DNA of 40,021 nt. Source: an uncultured Erysipelotrichaceae bacterium. GTDB lineage: Bacteria > Bacillota_I > Bacilli_A > RF39 > UBA660. Shown in pieces: positions 9,124 through 40,021 of this stretch. The stretch spans positions 1 to 40,021 of the forward strand of contig CACYFN010000027.1 in assembly GCA_902773675.1 (NCBI GenBank), written 5' to 3'. Under the pieces are notes generated by a model, which worked only from the letters and a program-made list of their open reading frames with translations, searched no databases and was not told the DNA's origin. Each line of letters opens with the position of its first letter. The stretch's first letter is position 1. The position numbers and the translations under genes were made by a program.

Positions 9124-11007
9124 GTCGAGTAGACAAGTCTCGACTTTCACCTCTCTTTTCTTAAGTGAGGGAAGTCTCATTGCCCCTCACAGAACCCATC
9201 GTGCCCTATTAAGGCAATAGCCAAATATCTTTGTATATTTTGGGTTCTACTATTGGAACTCTTTCAAGTATTTTATTAAATATTTGAATGCTAAGTCGCC
9301 TTTGACTTCTTCTAAATATACTACTTCTGAGTGCATACAATGTATGATAGTATATTTTGTATAATTCATTAAGCATACCATTTATTCCATAGTAAGCATA
9401 TAATCCTATTAATTTCTTATTTAATAGTTTTATTATATCTATAAACTTTGTTGTTGTTCTGTGTTCCTTAATCCATTTTGTAATTGCTTGATGTTTTAAT
9501 TTTCTTTTCTTCTTACTCATTTTATGTCCTACTGTATATTTGCCTGTTCTTGTTGTCCCATTGTAATGCATAAAGCCAAGAAAGTCAAAAGTTTCTTTTG
9601 TTCCTTTAAACCTTCCAAATGGAAGTATTCTCGTTTTCTCTTGTTCCATTTCCAAACCAAATTTAGCTAATCTTTTAGTTAATAATTTATATACTTGTTT
9701 TGCTTCGTTTTCATATTGGAACATTATTATAAAATCATCTGCATATCTTACCAAGTATGCTTCTCCTTTTAATCTAGACTTAATATACTTTTCAAAGAAT
9801 AAATCAAGTACATAGTGCAAATATACATTTGCTAGTATTGGAGATATAAGCCCACCTTGTGGTGTACCTTTATATGTTTCATGATATTTCATATCTTCCA
9901 TGTAACCACTTATTAGAAATCTATTAATATATCTTAGAAATATTTTATCTTGTATGTCATGTTCAAGAAATTTCATTAACCATTTATGGTCTACATTATC
10001 AAAGAAACCTTTTATATCACAATCTAATATGTAATTAACTTTATTTATCATAATTCTTTGATTTATTTCCCTTATTGCTTGATGACAATTTCTATTTGGT
10101 CTAAAACCATATGAACATTCTAGAAATTTACATTCATAAATTTCATTTAGTATGTCTGCCATTACTCCTTGCACTAATTTGTCTTCATATGCTGGTATTC
10201 CAAGTGGTCTTAATTTTCCATTTACCTTAGGAATATAGGTTCTTCTTACCGGTAATGGTTTGTAACTAAACTTCTTCATTCGTTCAATTAGATTATCTAT
10301 ATTATCATCTAGTTTGACTTCATATTCTTCTTTAGTCACTTTATCTATTCCACTTGCTTTGTTTCTCTGTTGTTTTCTATGCTGTTCTTTTAATCTTTCT
10401 TTATTGACAAAATGAATTAGATTTTCTACCCTGATATTTCTTTGTGCATAATATTTTATATCTTTTCGTTCATTTTTCACTTATTATTCCTCCTCTTGGG
10501 TTGTAAGTGTTTCTCTAAAGAAACGATTATTTGCTAGTCCCTTCGCTCCAGAGTCGTTACTTCTTTCATCACTACTATGAACTAGTCCGACTACTTATAT
10601 ATCTTTTGAATATCTTGGGTTAACCAAGTCCTTGTATATTCATTACCTTTTACTATTGGTGATTTTAAACCTTTTAGACTTAGGAATATATAAGTTCTCT
10701 CAGGTACGTATATAATAACTATGTAAAACTCGCCATGTCCTAAGGACCCCGGTAGATTTCTCATAATATCTCGCATAACGATATTACCGATATTGTTTGC
10801 TAGGTAGGTGACCCTATCAACATCTACTTAAATATGTTTTAACGAGGCTCAATAACTTCACGATTACTCATTACGGCTCGAATTCTAGTTCGCCTACGCT
10901 TAAACCTAATCTCACGATTTCGGTTCCAAGGCTAACTACTGGCTCTTTGCTAGAGATTACCAGATTGGCTTCCCACCAATTATATTACATACGCCGAACT
11001 GACGCAC
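9124..11007 (-). mobile_element. Group II intron (complete, about 1.88 kb) in the response-regulator leader
   Basis: The 5' end is GTGCG at 11007-11003 (consensus GUGYG). The 3' end is a domain-VI-like hairpin, GTCGAG...CTACTCGAC, closing at 9124 with a candidate bulged A seven bases from the end. A loop sequence CACCTA (10810-10805) is exactly complementary to the last six exon bases TAGGTG (11013-11008), giving a perfect EBS1-IBS1 pair and fixing the boundary. 10481-11003 holds the structured domains and has higher GC than its surroundings. The reverse transcriptase sits near the 3' end. I could not delineate domain V with confidence. The exons joined read AATAGGTG-GTTAG-ATG. Confidence 0.88.
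9209..10480 (-). CDS. ltrA: Group II intron reverse transcriptase/maturase
   Basis: A 423-residue intron-encoded protein. RT blocks appear in order: NKASGIDKVT (RT0/1 area), IPKVNGKLRPLGIP, YGFRPNRNCHQAI, LDCDIKGFFDNVDH, GTPQGGLISPILANVYL and the catalytic YADD at 246-249, then the maturase domain X (LIGLYAYYGINGMLNELYKIYYH). No HNH endonuclease domain follows, so insertion would rely on reverse splicing primed at a replication fork or similar. GTG start with a GAGGAGG site 8 bases upstream. The frame is intact, so the intron may be active in splicing and mobility. Confidence 0.95.
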   Translation of the reverse strand: MKNERKDIKYYAQRNIRVENLIHFVNKERLKEQHRKQQRNKASGIDKVTKEEYEVKLDDNIDNLIERMKKFSYKPLPVRRTYIPKVNGKLRPLGIPAYEDKLVQGVMADILNEIYECKFLECSYGFRPNRNCHQAIREINQRIMINKVNYILDCDIKGFFDNVDHKWLMKFLEHDIQDKIFLRYINRFLISGYMEDMKYHETYKGTPQGGLISPILANVYLHYVLDLFFEKYIKSRLKGEAYLVRYADDFIIMFQYENEAKQVYKLLTKRLAKFGLEMEQEKTRILPFGRFKGTKETFDFLGFMHYNGTTRTGKYTVGHKMSKKKRKLKHQAITKWIKEHRTTTKFIDIIKLLNKKLIGLYAYYGINGMLNELYKIYYHTLYALRSSIFRRSQRRLSIQIFNKILERVPIVEPKIYKDIWLLP

Positions 11008-12574: not shown

Positions 12575-12598
12575 AAAAAAGTAGAAATTTCTACTTTT
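12575..12598 (-). terminator. Terminator of the 712-residue surface protein gene
   Basis: A perfect palindromic stem, AAAAGTAGAAA / TTTCTACTTTT (12577-12598), overlaps the stop codon and continues into a T-run on the minus strand. Confidence 0.8.
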
Positions 12599-14735
12599 AT
12601 TCATAATTTGGAATAACCTTAATTCTATATCCATAATAATTAGCATATGTAGAAGTATAAGTTGAAGAAGAAAATTTAATTTTAACATAATTACCATTTA
12701 CTGTATAAGTAGTATCAGTAATAGAACTCTGAGTACCATAAAATCTAGTTAAATATGAATAATTTGAAGCACTACTAGAATTATATATATATATGCCTGA
12801 AGAACTAAAGTAGAACTGATAACTAATTTGAAGAGTAATTGATTTTGCTCCTTCAAAAGTATTTTCATATACTAGAGCAAAACTTTGACTTGATGGATAA
12901 GGATAATGCTCAGATTCAACAACAGGATAAGCAATTTTTTCAACATCGGAAATTATAACATCACCTTCAGGCATAACAAAAGAATTTCCTGTTATTTTTT
13001 CATCATTAACTTTAAATGAGGCTACACCACTATATGCATCCGAATTTACATTAATAGTAACCGTCTCGCCAGGTTCAGCTTCACCTTGTATAATTACATC
13101 AGGATCATTATATGTAATTATATTTTTAACTTTTATATAATGTATATCAGTTATATTTGCTTCAGCATGTGGCATCACAAAAGTATTACCATCAATTTTT
13201 TTACCATTTAATTTAAATGATAAAATTTGATAAGCAGCGTTAATATTAATAGTAACTTCAGATTCAATAGCAGCAGTTTCAGGAGCACTAATAAGTTCAT
13301 CGTCAGGAATATTTATATTAAAAGATTTAATTCCAACTTTATAAGGACTACCAGATGAACCATCACCAGAAATATATTCGGTATTTTCACTTAAATACAA
13401 TACAGGTCTAATACTATATGTTGAAGATACAGAAGAAGGTGAACTAACACAATTAGTTGATAAATAAAGTACTCTACCACCATTATTACTTTTTGAAGAA
13501 ATTGTAAAAGGATATTTATTAGATTGATACATCCAACTTGTATCATAATAATCATTAAAAGTAAAGAAATAATCACTTGGATACATTAATGCAATTTTAT
13601 TAAACATATAACTAGAATTATTTCTTTCCCAATTATAATATGTAAGACTAGATTCAGTTTTATTAGAACAATATTGATAATAATTATAAGGAATTTCAGA
13701 TTTATAATACTTAGAAGTACTTATCATTGATTTAGCAGAAGTAGACAAAGACTGCCAATAAGTACCACTATTTAATTTTTCATAATATGTACCACTAGTA
13801 ATTAGCGCAGAAGTAGTCGTTTCAAGAATAGAATCACTAATTATTTTTACTCTCTGTTGAATGTTTCCATATAAATCCTCGACCGGAAAAACTCCAATAA
13901 TTCTCCACTTTTCACAGGTAGAATTATCAGTTTCATCTGTACAATTAAAATAAATATAATTATTAGGAGATTGTCCAATATACCTATAATCTGTTAAAGC
14001 AGGAGTTTGAAAAGTTGCCGCTTGAGTAAACGTATGCATCTGATCTATTGGTGAAGATGAACTTGTAGTAAAGCCTTCACTATAAGAACGTTCAATAATA
14101 TAATCAGCAAAAGTAGAAGTTGGATAATATCCACCAAATACAAAATCTGTATCCCATATTTCCTGATATCCATCATATTGAGCAAATTCAATATTAAAAG
14201 TTAAAGTATATCTAGCATTATCATATCCATTCCCACTAGATACACAAGTGATTTCACTACCATCTTCACTCTCAGAACAGTCACTAGCATCTGCTTCAGC
14301 AAAAGAATTAAAAGAAACAGACTCAAGAAAACTTGAAGTACTTTCATCTTTCGATAATGGTTTTTTATAATAATAATATCCTTTATATTTAATCCAATCA
14401 TCAGTATTATCAAAATTTAAAGTAGTCAAATTTGAAATATCAGAAGGATCATCAAATACATCTCCATTTGCTGTAGTCCAATATTGGGTATAAGATAAAC
14501 GTACAGCAACATCAAAATCATTGTTATTGGTTGCAATTACTTGCTTATCAGTAACATCCCCAGGTTTCCAATGTTGAGGACTAATAAACCTTTCTGTAAC
14601 AGTAGTATTAAATGGTTCTGCTCCAAAACCAGTCAAAAAATCTAAACCATTTGAAAAATATGCTATTACAGCACCAACTACAAAAATAATTAACATGCTA
14701 AAAACTAATACAATATTTCTTTTCTTCTTCATCAT
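12597..14735 (-). CDS. Large SipW-type signal-anchored surface protein (DUF6273-like, CUB-like end)
   Basis: A 712-residue secreted protein. A basic start and a hydrophobic segment (about 8-27) end in AYFSNGLDF, like SipW-dependent signal peptides. Residues about 30-200 resemble the TasA/CalY-type beta fold (WKPGDVTDKQVIATNNNDFDVAVRLSY). The middle part (about 240-455) looks like DUF6273: YIGQSPNNYIYFNC, EKWRIIGVF and IRPVLYLSENTEYISGDG. Two beta repeats share GN[TS]FVMP. The last 110 residues are rich in Ser/Tyr and resemble a CUB-like beta sandwich. Substrate or partner is unknown. It is monocistronic, about 23 kb from the sipW-like gene. RBS GGAGTGAT. Confidence 0.75.
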   Translation of the reverse strand: MMKKKRNIVLVFSMLIIFVVGAVIAYFSNGLDFLTGFGAEPFNTTVTERFISPQHWKPGDVTDKQVIATNNNDFDVAVRLSYTQYWTTANGDVFDDPSDISNLTTLNFDNTDDWIKYKGYYYYKKPLSKDESTSSFLESVSFNSFAEADASDCSESEDGSEITCVSSGNGYDNARYTLTFNIEFAQYDGYQEIWDTDFVFGGYYPTSTFADYIIERSYSEGFTTSSSSPIDQMHTFTQAATFQTPALTDYRYIGQSPNNYIYFNCTDETDNSTCEKWRIIGVFPVEDLYGNIQQRVKIISDSILETTTSALITSGTYYEKLNSGTYWQSLSTSAKSMISTSKYYKSEIPYNYYQYCSNKTESSLTYYNWERNNSSYMFNKIALMYPSDYFFTFNDYYDTSWMYQSNKYPFTISSKSNNGGRVLYLSTNCVSSPSSVSSTYSIRPVLYLSENTEYISGDGSSGSPYKVGIKSFNINIPDDELISAPETAAIESEVTININAAYQILSFKLNGKKIDGNTFVMPHAEANITDIHYIKVKNIITYNDPDVIIQGEAEPGETVTINVNSDAYSGVASFKVNDEKITGNSFVMPEGDVIISDVEKIAYPVVESEHYPYPSSQSFALVYENTFEGAKSITLQISYQFYFSSSGIYIYNSSSASNYSYLTRFYGTQSSITDTTYTVNGNYVKIKFSSSTYTSTYANYYGYRIKVIPNYE

Positions 14736-34861: not shown

Positions 34862-35036
34862 AAAAAAGCCAAAAGAGAGATTACCGAATCGAATAAAACC
34901 TAGTCTCCTAGGTGGGCATCACATCATAACCTTTAGGATCCCCAGTTAAACTGGGCTTTCAACACCAGCTATGAATTAGATTCCCTATTATATCGATTAG
35001 TAGGTTTTTCATATAGGTATATCTCATCTTTCAGCT
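34862..35036 (-). ncRNA. ssrS: 6S-like structured RNA (about 175 nt)
   Basis: No open frame. The expected transcript starts 7 bases after a -10 box, at A35036, and its first 16 bases pair with its 3' end before the T-run: AGCUGAAAGA-U-GAGAU with AUCUCUCUUUUGGCU, one bulge. Four further pairs follow (UACC/GGUA). Inside are AAUCGA/UCGAUU, AAAACCUA/UAGGUUUU, a perfect CCCAGU/ACUGGG hairpin and a CCUAG/CUAGG hairpin. A long closing helix, an internal open region and this length are the 6S RNA design, which binds sigma-A polymerase. The 3' helix is also the terminator. Family identity is inferred from structure, not from alignment. Confidence 0.62.
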
Positions 35037-35042
35037 AAATAA

Positions 35043-35151: not shown

Positions 35152-37395
35152 TTAATATCCTAAAGCAGATTGAGCTGCGACAAATTTAGAATAATGATCT
35201 GTATACCAAGTATTATATTCAGTACTTGTCCATGTACTATAATCATGCCAACTACCAGCATAGAATCTTCTAAAGAAACTATTATTTTTAAGTGTTAAAT
35301 CCTGATATGCAGGAACACTTAAAGAATCTGTTTGAAATAAATTATCAGCAGGTTGATCTACATTTTTCTTTCCGTTATTAAATATAACGTTAGTATAACC
35401 AGCTTCAATAACTGCTTTATATGTTATATCACTTACTTTATCACTAGCAGTCAAATGATCCCCTGGCCAAGTAGTACTTGATGAACTATTCCACTTATGA
35501 ACAAATGGTATCCAATTATTACTTCCATGTGGATCTGCTGCAACAACATAGAATACCCTAGTACCAGAACCAGAATATAATTCTGGAGCAAAAATCTGTC
35601 CTATATTACTTGTAGCTAAATCTACATCTATTGTTTTACGCATATTTATATTATTAAACACTACTTTATCATAATAGAAAATATTTTCTCCTGCCAAAAC
35701 AGTATATTTAAATATTTTTTTATCATTATCAATCTTTGTAGCTTTATAATCATTAGTTGGACTATCAAATGAATAATTAGAACTATTAACACCATTAGAA
35801 TCATATAGATAAACATATACATCTTCTGAACTAGTCCAATCTGGAGGTAATTGGAAATATATATTACAATCCCAAATAGCATATAAATCAATTACAGCAT
35901 CATAATCACTAGATAAACCACTTACAGTTTGATGATCAGTATAATTATTACCAGTTCCATCAGCACTAGTATTCCATTTTTTAAATATACAACTAGTTCT
36001 TGTAAATGAATTATTAGTTAATGCTTTTGACTCATTATAAGCAAAATCCATATCACTCATCGTACCAGTACCACCATTTGCATTAAATCTAATTTTATAA
36101 TGAGGTGTTATATAACTGATACGAGCATATCCATCTCCAGTATTACCTGTCATATATGATGAACCATCATGAGTAGGCATACTTAAATTACCAGCAATAG
36201 TTTGTCCATTTATTAATGTAGAAGTATTTACATAACCAGATCCACCACTTCCAGCCATTCCACCGACAGATCCCATACTTGAATTATTAGCAAGCTTATT
36301 ACCACCATACCATCCACCTCCAGCTCCAGCATCAGCACCTGAATAACTTCTTATAGCATCTGTGCCTTTACCGAATGTTCCATATATATACATATTTGTA
36401 TCACTTTGAGATAATTGAGATGCACCTGGAATTTCAAGTCCATAATAATATACGTAACTACCATTTATTAATGGTGAAGTTCTATATTTATAATAGACAA
36501 AAGCAGAACCTCCTAGTTGACCACCACCAAAACCACCAACGCTATAATAATTAATTTCTGTACTACTATATGATCCACCGCCACCACCGGCTACAAGTAG
36601 TACATCGCTTTTATTATTTTCAAAATTTTTTAACTCACCAAGATTATTGGTTGCAAAATGAGTTGCTCCTCCGCCTGATCCTTGATAATTTTTAATAACA
36701 TCCAAAAGAGCTTGCCCTCCTCCATTATATCCACCTTCTAATGTTGTTCCTTTAACAGAATTCATAAGTGTTTTACCTTCACATCCTACTACAACATAAA
36801 TTTCATCATCCTTATTAAGATAAACTATACCATAAGAATATCCACCTTTTCCTCCTTCTATAGCTTCAAGTGTTTTAGAACCATTAATATTTTCAGGTAC
36901 AGATCCACCTTGTGCTCCCCAAGCTTCAAGCAAATAATAGCCATCACTATTTGCAGTAAATGTTTCGACACTTTCAGTACAAATATAATCATTCAATTTT
37001 GTAGTATCATCTAAATAACTACTATCAAACCATTGAGCAAATAAAGTTATTACACCTCCATCAATACTACTTAAATACATTATTTCTTCATTATCTCTAT
37101 AATTTTGTCCAGAACCATTTTGTTCTGTATTCCATCCTAAAAACATCTTATCTTCATTTACAAACGTATTTGAAGGTAAAGTTTGAGCAGAACCATACTT
37201 ACAGCTAATATCACTCATGTTACCTGTTCCACCATTTGAATCAAACTTAACTGTATAAGTTGGCTTTGTTATACTTAAATTAATATTATTATTAAATGTT
37301 GCTTTAAATTTACTAAAAGTTAAAGGCAATAAAAATATCGAAATTATAAATATAATTAAATAAACCTGCCATTTTAATCTTCTTTTTTTTCTCAT
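35152..37395 (-). CDS. Multi-domain surface protein: InlB-type repeats, ALK-like Gly-rich domain, CBM26-like module
   Basis: A 747-residue secreted protein. The signal segment (about 9-27) is followed by SKFKATFNN, as in SipW substrates. Then an InlB/Listeria-Bacteroides repeat (YTVKFDSNGGTGNMSDI to LFAQWFD), and a Gly-rich domain (about 150-430, LLEAWGAQGG, GSGGGATHF, LLVAGGGGGSY, GAGGGWYGG, GDGYARISYI) like the ALK/LTK glycine-rich fold. A second InlB-type repeat (YKIRFNANGGTGTMSD to DLYAIWD) follows. The C-terminal end (IYFQLPPDWTSSEDVYVYLYD, TTWPGDHLT, YTNVIFNNGKKN) resembles a starch-binding CBM26 module. Likely a glycan-binding surface adhesin, last in the cluster; the ligand is inferred only. 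Confidence 0.82.
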   Translation of the reverse strand: MRKKRRLKWQVYLIIFIISIFLLPLTFSKFKATFNNNINLSITKPTYTVKFDSNGGTGNMSDISCKYGSAQTLPSNTFVNEDKMFLGWNTEQNGSGQNYRDNEEIMYLSSIDGGVITLFAQWFDSSYLDDTTKLNDYICTESVETFTANSDGYYLLEAWGAQGGSVPENINGSKTLEAIEGGKGGYSYGIVYLNKDDEIYVVVGCEGKTLMNSVKGTTLEGGYNGGGQALLDVIKNYQGSGGGATHFATNNLGELKNFENNKSDVLLVAGGGGGSYSSTEINYYSVGGFGGGQLGGSAFVYYKYRTSPLINGSYVYYYGLEIPGASQLSQSDTNMYIYGTFGKGTDAIRSYSGADAGAGGGWYGGNKLANNSSMGSVGGMAGSGGSGYVNTSTLINGQTIAGNLSMPTHDGSSYMTGNTGDGYARISYITPHYKIRFNANGGTGTMSDMDFAYNESKALTNNSFTRTSCIFKKWNTSADGTGNNYTDHQTVSGLSSDYDAVIDLYAIWDCNIYFQLPPDWTSSEDVYVYLYDSNGVNSSNYSFDSPTNDYKATKIDNDKKIFKYTVLAGENIFYYDKVVFNNINMRKTIDVDLATSNIGQIFAPELYSGSGTRVFYVVAADPHGSNNWIPFVHKWNSSSSTTWPGDHLTASDKVSDITYKAVIEAGYTNVIFNNGKKNVDQPADNLFQTDSLSVPAYQDLTLKNNSFFRRFYAGSWHDYSTWTSTEYNTWYTDHYSKFVAAQSALGY

Positions 37396-37413
37396 TTTTT
37401 ATCATCTCAAATT

Positions 37414-37902
37414 CTAATTAATTTTTTTTTGAGTAAATACTACATCAACCTTAATTTTCTTATTAGTTTGTTCATCGGCATACAATTCAGCTTTAATTTT
37501 TAAAGTGTGATTCTTTGAAGTATTAGATGCATTCGCATTAAATGATCCGACATTATTAAATTGAACTTTTCCAGATGATACATTTTTATAATTATTATTA
37601 TCTAGCGCAACTTGCACACCAATTGGTAAATTTGATATAACAATTGAATAATTAGTGGCTACCTCTGATTTACTTGTAACAGTTAATGTATACGTATCTA
37701 TATTATTACCAGCCACTAAATTAATATCCTCTGTTGGTATGTTTGCTAATACATCCCATTTAGCAATTGATAAACTACCTGTCTTATCAACACTACTTGA
37801 AAATTTAGAATAAGTTCGAATTACAAAGAATGAAGTTAATAACACTAAATAAAGAGAAAAGAATACAATAAATTTCTTTTTTAATTTTCTTTTTTTCTTC
37901 AT
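37414..37902 (-). CDS. TasA/CalY-like SipW-dependent protein
   Basis: A 162-residue exported protein. Basic start (MKKKRKLKKK), hydrophobic segment about 11-28, then TYSKFSSSVDKTGSLSIAKWDV. This is the SipW-type signal-peptide end and shares SSVDKxGSxxxAKW with the protein at 39211. The rest is a beta domain with the TNYSIVISNLP and SKNHTLKIKAELYA strands seen in TasA/CalY-like proteins. Such proteins form matrix fibres or surface layers. Its first 98 bases overlap the end of the signal peptidase gene in another frame; RBS AAAGGAGT lies inside that gene. Confidence 0.82.
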   Translation of the reverse strand: MKKKRKLKKKFIVFFSLYLVLLTSFFVIRTYSKFSSSVDKTGSLSIAKWDVLANIPTEDINLVAGNNIDTYTLTVTSKSEVATNYSIVISNLPIGVQVALDNNNYKNVSSGKVQFNNVGSFNANASNTSKNHTLKIKAELYADEQTNKKIKVDVVFTQKKIN

Positions 37903-38362
37903 ATTTTTTTACTCCTTTCTTTTTATCAGGTATTAAAATTGTTATTATTAAGCCAAATACAAAAGCTAATATAAGTGTTTTAGGTTTAGAAAACAAGTAG
38001 CAAAAAAATCCAAAAAATTTAAACTTATAAATTACTTTACCAACAATATCACCTTTTTTAATAGGATCATCTATTGTGTTATTAGCATCCCCTTTTGTAA
38101 CTACTTCATTATTATCAATAGATACAATTCTATGAGTTATATATTCTTTATTTTTTTTATAAGTAATAACATCATTCACTTTATAATTTTTACTTTTTTT
38201 TATAATTACAACATCATTTATATGAATATAAGGTTCCATGCTACCAGATACAACTCTAAAAGTTCTAATTCCAAAAAAGGAAATATTAAAGAATGAAAAT
38301 GTATTTATAAGAACTATTAAAATACAAATTCCAATTAATATCCTATAAATTATTGTTTTCAT
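37805..38362 (-). CDS. sipW: Signal peptidase I, SipW (ER) type
   Basis: A 185-residue membrane protease. TM1 about 8-28, catalytic Ser41 in VVSGSMEPYI, then the Ser-His dyad His77 in YITHRIVS, where bacterial P-type enzymes have Lys, and the VVTKGDANN motif (Asp92). A second TM lies about 117-142. This Ser/His arrangement defines the SipW/ER-type family that processes TasA-like proteins, and TasA-like genes flank it on both sides. The last about 32 residues are read from DNA that also encodes the next protein's signal peptide. Start overlaps the upstream stop (TAATG). Confidence 0.93.
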   Translation of the reverse strand: MKTIIYRILIGICILIVLINTFSFFNISFFGIRTFRVVSGSMEPYIHINDVVIIKKSKNYKVNDVITYKKNKEYITHRIVSIDNNEVVTKGDANNTIDDPIKKGDIVGKVIYKFKFFGFFCYLFSKPKTLILAFVFGLIITILIPDKKKGVKKYEEKKKIKKEIYCILFSLFSVINFILCNSNLF

Positions 38363-39126
38363 TAATTAGCTATTTCTTCAAAATAAAATCTAATATTTAA
38401 TTTATATTCACTAGTCATATTCTCACCAATATTTGTATCATTAACATCATCATCAAACCATTTCCAATCTAGTTCAAAACTATCATAATTACTAGCTTTT
38501 AAATTTTTGAATTCAGTTTTTAATTCATCAGCACTTACCCAATTATCATCATTACCTATTATATAACTACCATTTCTTCTTAAACGATATTTTAAATTAA
38601 TATTATAATCACTTTGTTCATACATTTCAACATAATATTTTATATCAACATCAGAAGTATTATTAACCTTAAATTCATATGTATTTGAAACACCTGGAGC
38701 TATTTTATTAGTATAATTAAATGCTGCATTATTAAAAATATTTAAATTTTGTTGATATATATAATTACCATCTTTATCATCTACAAATACTTTACCAATT
38801 ATATCTTTATCAGTATCTTCATCAAATACAGGTATATCATTATTCTTATTTGGTTTATTGCTATTTATATTAATATTTTTAGTATTATCGTTATTATTTT
38901 TATCATCATTTACAACTGGGCATTCTTCTTTAGGACAATTTATATTTATATTAAATACATCGGTATTCCCTGTTTTAATTTTATAAGCGTCATCATTATT
39001 ATTAGAATTATTACCATCTTTTTTACAACATTTAGTTAAACATAATAATATAATTATAATAATTAATATAGCTATAATAACCCAAGATATAATTTTTTTT
39101 CTTCTTTCTTCTTTGTATTCTTCCAT
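38362..39126 (-). CDS. Membrane-anchored TasA-like accessory protein
   Basis: A 254-residue protein with a charged N-terminal (MEEYKEERRKK), one TM helix (about 12-30), CCKK and a long Asn/Asp/Lys-rich linker (about 35-105, repeated NININS and NKNN patterns). A C-terminal beta domain follows, with NKIAPGVSNTYEFKVNNTSDVDIKYYVEMYEQ and the later LDWKWFDDD strand. The IAPG[VT]S... segment also occurs in the protein at 39211 (KIAPGTSGSFDIEVSN). Here the TM is not of SipW-cleaved form, so it may stay in the membrane and anchor fibres. It overlaps sipW by one base. Confidence 0.75.
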   Translation of the reverse strand: MEEYKEERRKKIISWVIIAILIIIIILLCLTKCCKKDGNNSNNNDDAYKIKTGNTDVFNININCPKEECPVVNDDKNNNDNTKNININSNKPNKNNDIPVFDEDTDKDIIGKVFVDDKDGNYIYQQNLNIFNNAAFNYTNKIAPGVSNTYEFKVNNTSDVDIKYYVEMYEQSDYNINLKYRLRRNGSYIIGNDDNWVSADELKTEFKNLKASNYDSFELDWKWFDDDVNDTNIGENMTSEYKLNIRFYFEEIAN

Positions 39127-39187
39127 ATTTTCACTCCTTTTTATTATTAATTAATTTTCATAAACAAAATATTACTACTTTGCTTAT

Positions 39188-39208
39188 GGAAGTTAAATAA
39201 TAACTTCC
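39188..39208 (-). promoter_or_regulatory. Intercistronic hairpin after the first TasA-like gene
   Basis: A perfect 8-bp stem GGAAGTTA / TAACTTCC begins 2 bases after the gene stop, without a T-run. It could act as an attenuator or mRNA stabiliser, making the first gene more expressed than the rest of the cluster. Confidence 0.5.
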
Positions 39209-39210
39209 TA

Positions 39211-39810
39211 TTATCCACCGATAGCAACTGCTGAGAATGAATCAGCAGACATTGCAGTAGCACTAGGTGTAACTTGTGTACCAACAATATGAGCTTTAAA
39301 TGTTAAAGTTTGAGCTGCAGCTCCATCAGTAGTATCAGCACTATCTCCACCAGTTGTTTCATATGGCCACTCCCAAGTTACAGGAATAGTTGCAGTATGT
39401 CCTTTTTGAAGTGTTCCAGTAATTTTCTTTGTCATACCAGTAGTATCATTCATAGCAGTACCATTTTGTTTAAATACTAAATTTGTAGGCAAATTAGATA
39501 TATCTGTAAAAGTAATTTCATAATTAATACCAACTTCTGAATTTAAATTAGATACTTCAATATCAAATGATCCGGAAGTACCTGGTGCAATTTTAGAACT
39601 TGCTAATGTAGATGCATCAGCCGTTGGAGTAATAGTTATAGATAAATTACCAGCAGTATTATCATCATTAAAAGCCCATTTTGCAACTGTAGCAGATCCA
39701 TTTTTATCTACACTACTTGTATATTTAGCAAATGTTCCAACTACATATACACTAGCAACACCAACTAACAGCAAAATTACTAATAAGCTTAATGCTTTTT
39801 TCTTTTTCAT
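39211..39810 (-). CDS. TasA/CalY-like major surface or fibre protein
   Basis: About 199 residues. A SipW-type signal (MKKKKALSLLVILLLVGVAS, ending at FAKYTSSVDKNGS) precedes a Ser/Thr-rich beta protein: TVAKWAFNDD, LSITITPTADAS, KIAPGTSGSFDIEVSNLNSEVGINYEITFTDIS and a later WEWPYET strand. This matches TasA/CalY-type fibre-forming proteins. First gene after a strong promoter, with a hairpin behind it, so probably the most abundant product of the cluster. The ATG at 39810 follows GGTGGTG; an in-frame start at 39858 precedes that site and is less likely. Confidence 0.85.
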   Translation of the reverse strand: MKKKKALSLLVILLLVGVASVYVVGTFAKYTSSVDKNGSATVAKWAFNDDNTAGNLSITITPTADASTLASSKIAPGTSGSFDIEVSNLNSEVGINYEITFTDISNLPTNLVFKQNGTAMNDTTGMTKKITGTLQKGHTATIPVTWEWPYETTGGDSADTTDGAAAQTLTFKAHIVGTQVTPSATAMSADSFSAVAIGG

Positions 39811-39881
39811 TTTTTCACCACCAATCCTCACATCAAACGACAGAATTCGCACAACCAATATATGCTCTCCTATCTATACAA

Positions 39882-39910
39882 AGTATATCATTTATCAATA
39901 GTCTTGTCAA
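39882..39910 (-). promoter_or_regulatory. Strong promoter of the SipW/TasA-type cluster
   Basis: TTGACA (39910-39905), 17 bases, TATACT (39887-39882) on the minus strand. The leader to the ATG at 39810 is about 65 bases. A perfect -35 and a good -10 suggest high vegetative expression. Confidence 0.85.
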
Positions 39911-39947: not shown

Positions 39948-40021
39948 TAGACAAAAAAAGAAAGACCGGTTATAATAGTTAATCACAAACAAAAACTTAA
40001 ACGGAGGTCTTTCCATGAACA
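39948..40021 (+). other. Promoter, leader and start of a plus-strand gene (probable transposase) at the window edge
   Basis: TAGACA (39948-39953), 17 bases, TATAAT (39971-39976) form a plus-strand promoter. CGGAGGT (40000-40008) is a strong ribosome site and ATG 40015 starts a frame of which only ATG AAC is visible. An AAAGACC/GGTCTTT inverted repeat spans the region. A short, GC-richer leader with an own strong promoter, placed divergently beside the cluster, resembles the left end of an insertion sequence, but the coding part is missing. Confidence 0.5.

Follow-up and report, generated by a model that had tools for sequence, protein, structure and literature searches.

A SipW-type gene cluster of an uncultured Erysipelotrichaceae bacterium with a membrane-anchored subunit homologue and a modular end protein: a candidate sortase-independent donor-strand fiber

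How SipW/TasA-type fibers are attached to the cell and what cargo they carry at their end are unsettled matters even in Bacillus, and both questions are raised by a five-gene cluster of an uncultured Erysipelotrichaceae bacterium (assembly GCA_902773675.1; 1.46 Mb in 94 contigs). The window analyzed here is the entire contig CACYFN010000027.1 (C27; 40,021 nt). A first-pass annotation of its sequence had listed a TasA-like protein, a membrane-anchored TasA-like protein, a SipW-type peptidase, a second TasA-like protein and a modular adhesin, and the five open reading frames (ORFs) were confirmed in that order, all on the minus strand (39810 to 35152), with transcription running TasA1, ANCH (the anchored member), SipW, TasA2, ADH (the adhesin). 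The operon, in our estimate, rather probably makes a sortase-independent fiber of the donor-strand type, with a membrane base that crosses the cell wall and a variable, probably glycan-binding tip. The basis of this reading is gene order, homology, folds modeled with moderate confidence and a conserved RNA structure, from which we infer strand exchange, the base and tip roles, the control of stoichiometry and glycan binding.

The five genes look like a single operon, since ANCH ends where SipW starts, the SipW and TasA2 ORFs share 98 nt, and TasA2 is separated from ADH by 18 nt (Table 1). The promoter-like site immediately 5′ of the first gene is the joint best consensus match of the region, across which the total count of promoter-like matches was equal to that in shuffled sequence. 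The probable start of TasA1 is the ATG at 39810, which is preceded by a ribosome-binding site; the TTG at 39858, listed as the start of this ORF, lies 5′ of the likely ribosome-binding site. The peptidase passed the TIGR02228 cut-off (81.8 bits against 51.85) and contained the active-site motifs GSM...THR, with a score below the cut-off of NF046067, the equivalog model of Bacillus SipW (64 bits vs. 190). Judged from its sequence, it is a peptidase of the endoplasmic reticulum (ER)-type S26 family with Ser/His catalytic motifs.

When 84,980 species genomes were scanned, 47 related loci were found, nearly all in entries titled as metagenome-assembled genomes, many of them from rumen and rabbit gut, with the depositor labels Bacilli, Clostridia or Erysipelotrichaceae. 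The usual order in these loci was TasA1, ANCH, SipW, TasA2 and a large ADH. TasA1 was found immediately 5′ of ANCH in 43 of the 45 testable loci, SipW and TasA2 within four genes after ANCH in 33 and 35 of 42 loci, respectively, and an additional SipW ahead of TasA1 in 21 loci; the conserved neighborhood that the first-pass annotation had proposed looking for is thus kept across genera. A second cluster in the same genome (contig C2, 2216–7278) contained TasA1, ANCH, TasA2, ADH, a TED/SpaA protein of the thioester-isopeptide type and a sortase, with no SipW, and pairs of TasA2 and adhesin genes were also present on contigs C65 and C60. Chance is rejected as the source of this gene order, which was met again in 47 loci outside this genome and, apart from SipW, in the C2 cluster. 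The system is patchy, since ANCH relatives were found in 27 of the 291 genomes of the same family (26 genera).

The two motifs reported earlier as shared were recovered: SSVDKxGSxxxAKW occurs as SSVDKNGSATVAKW in TasA1 and as SSVDKTGSLSIAKW in TasA2, and IAPG[VT]S as IAPGTS in TasA1 and IAPGVS in ANCH. Comparison of profiles without signal peptides indicated homology of TasA1 with TasA2 (hhalign expectation value (E) = 5 × 10−10) and of ANCH with TasA1 (E = 8 × 10−8), and at this sequence level the three proteins are mutually homologous, as they are in comparisons over the full length. None of them matched a Pfam or NCBIfam family. Links of the full-length subunits to camelysin and BsaA were rejected as signal-peptide similarity, since the matches were gone once the signal peptides had been cut. 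PF12389 (TasA/camelysin) was matched neither by TasA1, TasA2 or ANCH of the window nor anywhere in the genome, and TIGR04087 (TapA) by none of the five cluster proteins, with a match in one TasA1 relative (E = 0.016). PDB sequences were also searched, using profiles of TasA1 and ANCH as well as the C-terminus of ADH, and no relevant match emerged. TIGR04090 (BsaA) was not matched by the cluster proteins; its sole match in the window was the product of 12597–14735. This BsaA-family protein of the SipW-dependent type lies apart from the cluster, as does a further one on contig C51 (7511–9647), which carries its own SipW.

The AlphaFold2 model of TasA1 (predicted local distance difference test (pLDDT) 69.1) has a strand at residues 31–42, directly behind the signal peptide, and its best Foldseek match was the domain-swapped Escherichia coli common pilus subunit EcpA (3qs2; probability 1.00, E = 7.6 × 10−4), followed by the type I fimbrial protein BPSL1626 and Ena endospore appendages rather than by TasA. 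The ANCH model (pLDDT 72.7) matched the TasA fiber 8aur (probability 1.00, E = 0.01, 189 columns, template modeling (TM)-scores 0.34/0.37), TasA 5of1 (probability 0.99) and the archaeal thread subunit 7pnb (probability 0.89), while collagen-binding and other beta-sandwich domains equaled or outranked the TasA matches by E-value. For both proteins, the matches of highest probability concur on strand-exchange fiber subunits, though they are weak by E-value. The models did not give the unrelated folds that the first-pass annotation had named as speaking against the cluster, as ANCH resembles the TasA fiber and TasA1 the strand-swapped pilins; the name TasA-like can stand for a likeness of fold at most, suggested by the ANCH model, and had to be given up at the level of family or profile without the signal peptide. 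According to the models, any relation of the subunits to TasA is one of fold alone, and the cluster is classed as a variant of the SipW-dependent fiber systems whose subunits are not members of the TasA family. TasA1 is the probable major subunit. A sortase pilus was rejected for the window cluster, as LPxTG was absent from TasA1, TasA2, ANCH and ADH, and no sortase was found among the cluster ORFs.

ANCH retains its N-terminal transmembrane helix and has no SipW-like cleavage region. Its linker is Asn-rich, as first described (24–25% Asn), and is replaced in relatives by four PASTA domains (E = 2.8 × 10−26) or four Big_2 domains (E = 1.8 × 10−57). PASTA domains bind peptidoglycan, which speaks for ANCH as a wall-crossing anchor. 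The juxtamembrane motif (PTGNVDIFDI and variants), found with a strict pattern in 26 of 48 sequences, was modeled as a strand; ANCH may take the TasA1 strand, donate its own juxtamembrane strand, or both, and would stand at the base of the fiber. TasA is known to polymerize through donation of an N-terminal strand, and the N-terminus donated by TapA starts fibers (PMC9674648, PMC10151520). It could be argued that the cluster makes loose matrix fibers of TasA1 and TasA2 as in Bacillus, ANCH being a TapA-like membrane chaperone that starts polymerization instead of a base, and ADH an independent secreted adhesin. TapA and CapP are indeed known assembly helpers of SipW-dependent fibers (PMC10151520, PMC13082335), and the juxtamembrane strand could be donated in the manner of the TapA N-terminus; however, the retained helix and the PASTA or Big_2 linkers of relatives fit a wall-crossing anchor, and ADH is co-encoded and has the SipW-type N-terminus in common with the subunits, so that we regard this explanation as rather unlikely.

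An RNA element located between tasA1 and the ANCH gene likely serves to make TasA1 and the products of the genes downstream in unequal amounts. This element, newly found here, is a conserved structure with competing folds. The spacer is mostly 65–125 nt long across related loci, and the median folding z-score, calculated with dinucleotide shuffles, was −5.2 in 39 homologous spacers vs. −1.4 in 65 other gaps of the same strand, similar length and the same loci (Mann–Whitney p = 2 × 10−15). Hairpin 1 (39188–39208) lies directly behind the TasA1 stop codon, and its 3′ arm is reused by a long hairpin; thus, the short and long hairpins are mutually exclusive. In each of two separate sequence groups, the long hairpin had a covariation score above that of all 500 shuffles; this control ignores relatedness, and the score also fell when the partner was slid by 1–3 columns, a control that takes relatedness into account. 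A first, lenient test of the competing hairpins scored controls alike and was dropped; in the stricter test used instead, 22 of the 39 spacers contained both arms jointly at p ≤ 0.05. The arm sequences vary by group (GGAAGTT, AAGAATAAT, CCTAAATGAAAG), and the covariation of hairpin 1 alone, inside one sequence group, was weak. The short hairpin has exactly two copies in the genome, each behind a tasA1 gene. No Rfam family was found for the element. An intrinsic terminator was also considered and rejected: a terminator scan found none behind tasA1, and the element is not a plain terminator because a U-rich tail occurs in only one of 39 spacers. In the Clostridium perfringens sipW-bsaA operon, a predicted terminator behind bsaA is accompanied by two mRNAs, one short and one reading through (PMC7395162).

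ADH contains an ALK_LTK_GRD glycine-rich domain (E = 7.6 × 10−35) and two Flg_new repeats. At its C-terminus, ADH can be aligned with the final part of a paralogue of 342 residues encoded on contig C2 (E = 5 × 10−48), and this paralogue passed the CBM26 cut-off (34.9 bits, E = 1.7 × 10−8). ADH probably binds glycan. In relatives, a large gene of variable content (about 500–2,700 aa) stands at the end, with Flg_new arrays, Big_2, DUF285 or a C-terminal Y_phosphatase3 domain; the repeats of some relatives resemble beta-helices by eye. Giant ADH relatives (L088, L090 and others) end, over the C-terminal 200 aa, in a Y_phosphatase3 domain with HCxxGxDRTG, that is, a tyrosine-phosphatase-like domain apparently exported at the end of a surface fiber protein. 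ADH itself has no subunit domain and, as it does have an exported N-terminal strand, could only terminate or decorate a fiber, which would place it at the tip. That there is no fiber at all, and that secreted and membrane-bound monomeric beta-sandwich proteins present carbohydrate-binding or enzymatic domains at the cell surface for the capture of nutrients such as gut starch, is suggested by the CBM26-like and glycine-rich domains and by the Y_phosphatase3 ends of other relatives as possible enzymatic cargo, but is improbable given three homologous subunit types with a SipW, fold matches to strand-swapped fiber subunits, and, following the first subunit gene, an RNA element that is conserved and suits unequal subunit amounts.

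The donor-strand fiber with an anchored base would be assembled as follows. TasA1 (major), TasA2 (minor) and ADH would be exported by Sec and then cut by the co-encoded SipW-type peptidase, freeing an N-terminal strand (SSVDKxGSxxxAKW and equivalents). The freed strand would fill in the beta-sandwich of the subunit that follows, in the way known from TasA and strand-swapped pilins. ANCH would stay uncleaved, its N-terminal helix keeping it in the membrane, with the linker crossing the wall and the homologous domain, perhaps together with the juxtamembrane strand, serving as the base where the fiber starts. In the simplest arrangement, TasA1 would form the rod, ANCH the base and ADH the end, while TasA2 is perhaps an adaptor; ADH would end or decorate the fiber and bind glycan through its glycine-rich and CBM26-like parts, and the RNA element behind tasA1 would keep TasA1 above ANCH and the downstream products.

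Several results weigh against this scheme. With signal peptides removed, TasA1, TasA2 and ANCH matched neither the camelysin/TasA nor the BsaA profiles, and PF12389 was matched by one of 30 TasA1 relatives (E = 0.012). The Foldseek E-values are weak (0.005–0.01 for TasA), with TM-scores of 0.3–0.4, and the pLDDT values of the models are moderate (69–73). The CBM26 score of ADH (23.4 bits) lies below the Pfam gathering cut-off of 28.1, and the strict form of the N-terminal strand pattern of ADH was found in only 17 of 33 sequences. An overlap of 98 nt, as between the SipW and TasA2 ORFs, is unusual; a close relative also has it. A broader proposal, to be taken as tentative, is that these loci represent a distinct type of donor-strand pilus of uncultured gut Bacilli, possibly with a membrane-anchored, wall-crossing subunit homologue as the base, a SipW-released rod, a variable tip that only donates a strand and is starch-binding, rich in repeats or equipped with a phosphatase, and a subunit ratio set by a conserved alternating-hairpin RNA that follows the rod gene.

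Compared with tapA-sipW-tasA of Bacillus subtilis, the cluster has in common a SipW-type peptidase in the operon, SipW-type signal peptides, a modeled beta-sandwich subunit alike at the level of the fold, and an accessory protein that could start fibers. It differs in lacking sequence homology past the signal peptide, in having as the accessory protein a membrane-anchored subunit homologue instead of TapA, in the order TasA1-ANCH-SipW-TasA2-ADH, and in the addition of a large modular protein, a second subunit and an RNA element after the major subunit gene. The earlier suggestion of an export cluster distinct from tapA-sipW-tasA, with an anchored subunit and a probably glycan-binding modular adhesin, is supported; it was correct on the cluster and the unusual set of members, and in part on the function. 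The sipW-bsaABCRSD operon of C. perfringens similarly combines SipW with several small exported subunits, a sortase-free polymer and transcripts that partly end after the gene of the major subunit (PMC7395162), whereas BsaA (TIGR04090) has no profile relation to TasA1, TasA2 or ANCH, and the text consulted on that operon mentions neither a membrane-anchored subunit nor a giant adhesin. TasA-CalY-CapP of Bacillus cereus is likewise a heteropolymer processed by SipW and independent of sortase, with an assembly helper linked to the surface (PMC13082335); unlike the membrane-anchored subunit homologue ANCH, CapP, a DUF4047 protein with a repeat C-domain, is secreted, and CalY and TasA belong to the camelysin family. 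Gram-negative donor-strand pili (EcpA, type 1 fimbriae) provided the best structural matches of the TasA1 model and have the same logic of base, rod and tip, whereas the window cluster has no chaperone or usher gene, and export would rely on Sec and SipW, the cell presumably having a single membrane.

Table 1. Features of the cluster and their positions in the window
Feature	Position	Strand	Description
Promoter-like site	39882..39910	-	TTGACA-17-TATACT with TG extension; 11/12 consensus match, upstream of TasA1
TasA1	39211..39810	-	199 aa; SipW-type signal peptide and beta-sandwich subunit
Intercistronic RNA element	39127..39210	-	Two competing hairpins
ANCH	38362..39126	-	254 aa; N-terminal transmembrane helix, KTGNTDVFNI, Asn-rich linker, C-terminal TasA-fold domain
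ANCH juxtamembrane motif	38947..38976	-	PTGNVDIFDI in relatives; modeled beta strand
SipW	37805..38362	-	SipW/ER-type signal peptidase; Ser in GSM, His in THR
TasA2	37414..37902	-	162 aa; second subunit-like protein, SipW-type signal peptide
ADH	35152..37395	-	747 aa modular secreted protein; SipW-type N-terminus, Flg_new, glycine-rich domain, Flg_new, CBM26-like C-terminus
Glycine-rich domain of ADH	36112..36948	-	PF12810, aa 150-428; E 7.6e-35
CBM26-like segment of ADH	35362..35508	-	Starch-binding type, aa 630-678; PF16738 E 6.5e-5, below curated cut-off

Some further features were observed around the cluster and in related loci. Upstream, the contig breaks off at an apparent gene start with a strong ribosome-binding site, possibly that of a transposase (window 39950–40021), and on its downstream side the adhesin gene is adjoined by a 6S RNA gene (34862–35040, minus strand). 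Elsewhere on the minus strand of the window, there are a group II intron (9209–10972), consisting of the catalytic RNA and a 423-aa reverse transcriptase, and a D-Ala-D-Ala carboxypeptidase gene (503–913), which is cut to 136 aa, apparently interrupted, and adjoined by an ATPase-like gene. In loci L096, L097 and L098, a SipW-like peptidase is contained within open frames of 700–811 aa, and a second SipW and subunit-like genes adjoin.

Thus, in a family with small genomes, a subunit homologue that retains its membrane helix, with PASTA domains in relatives, is combined with a large variable end protein, and the cluster offers a clear and testable architecture for the base and tip of a fiber in Gram-positive-type bacteria. 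The RNA with competing folds can be tested with reporters, and the fiber would be a likely way for uncultured gut bacteria to attach to glycans.

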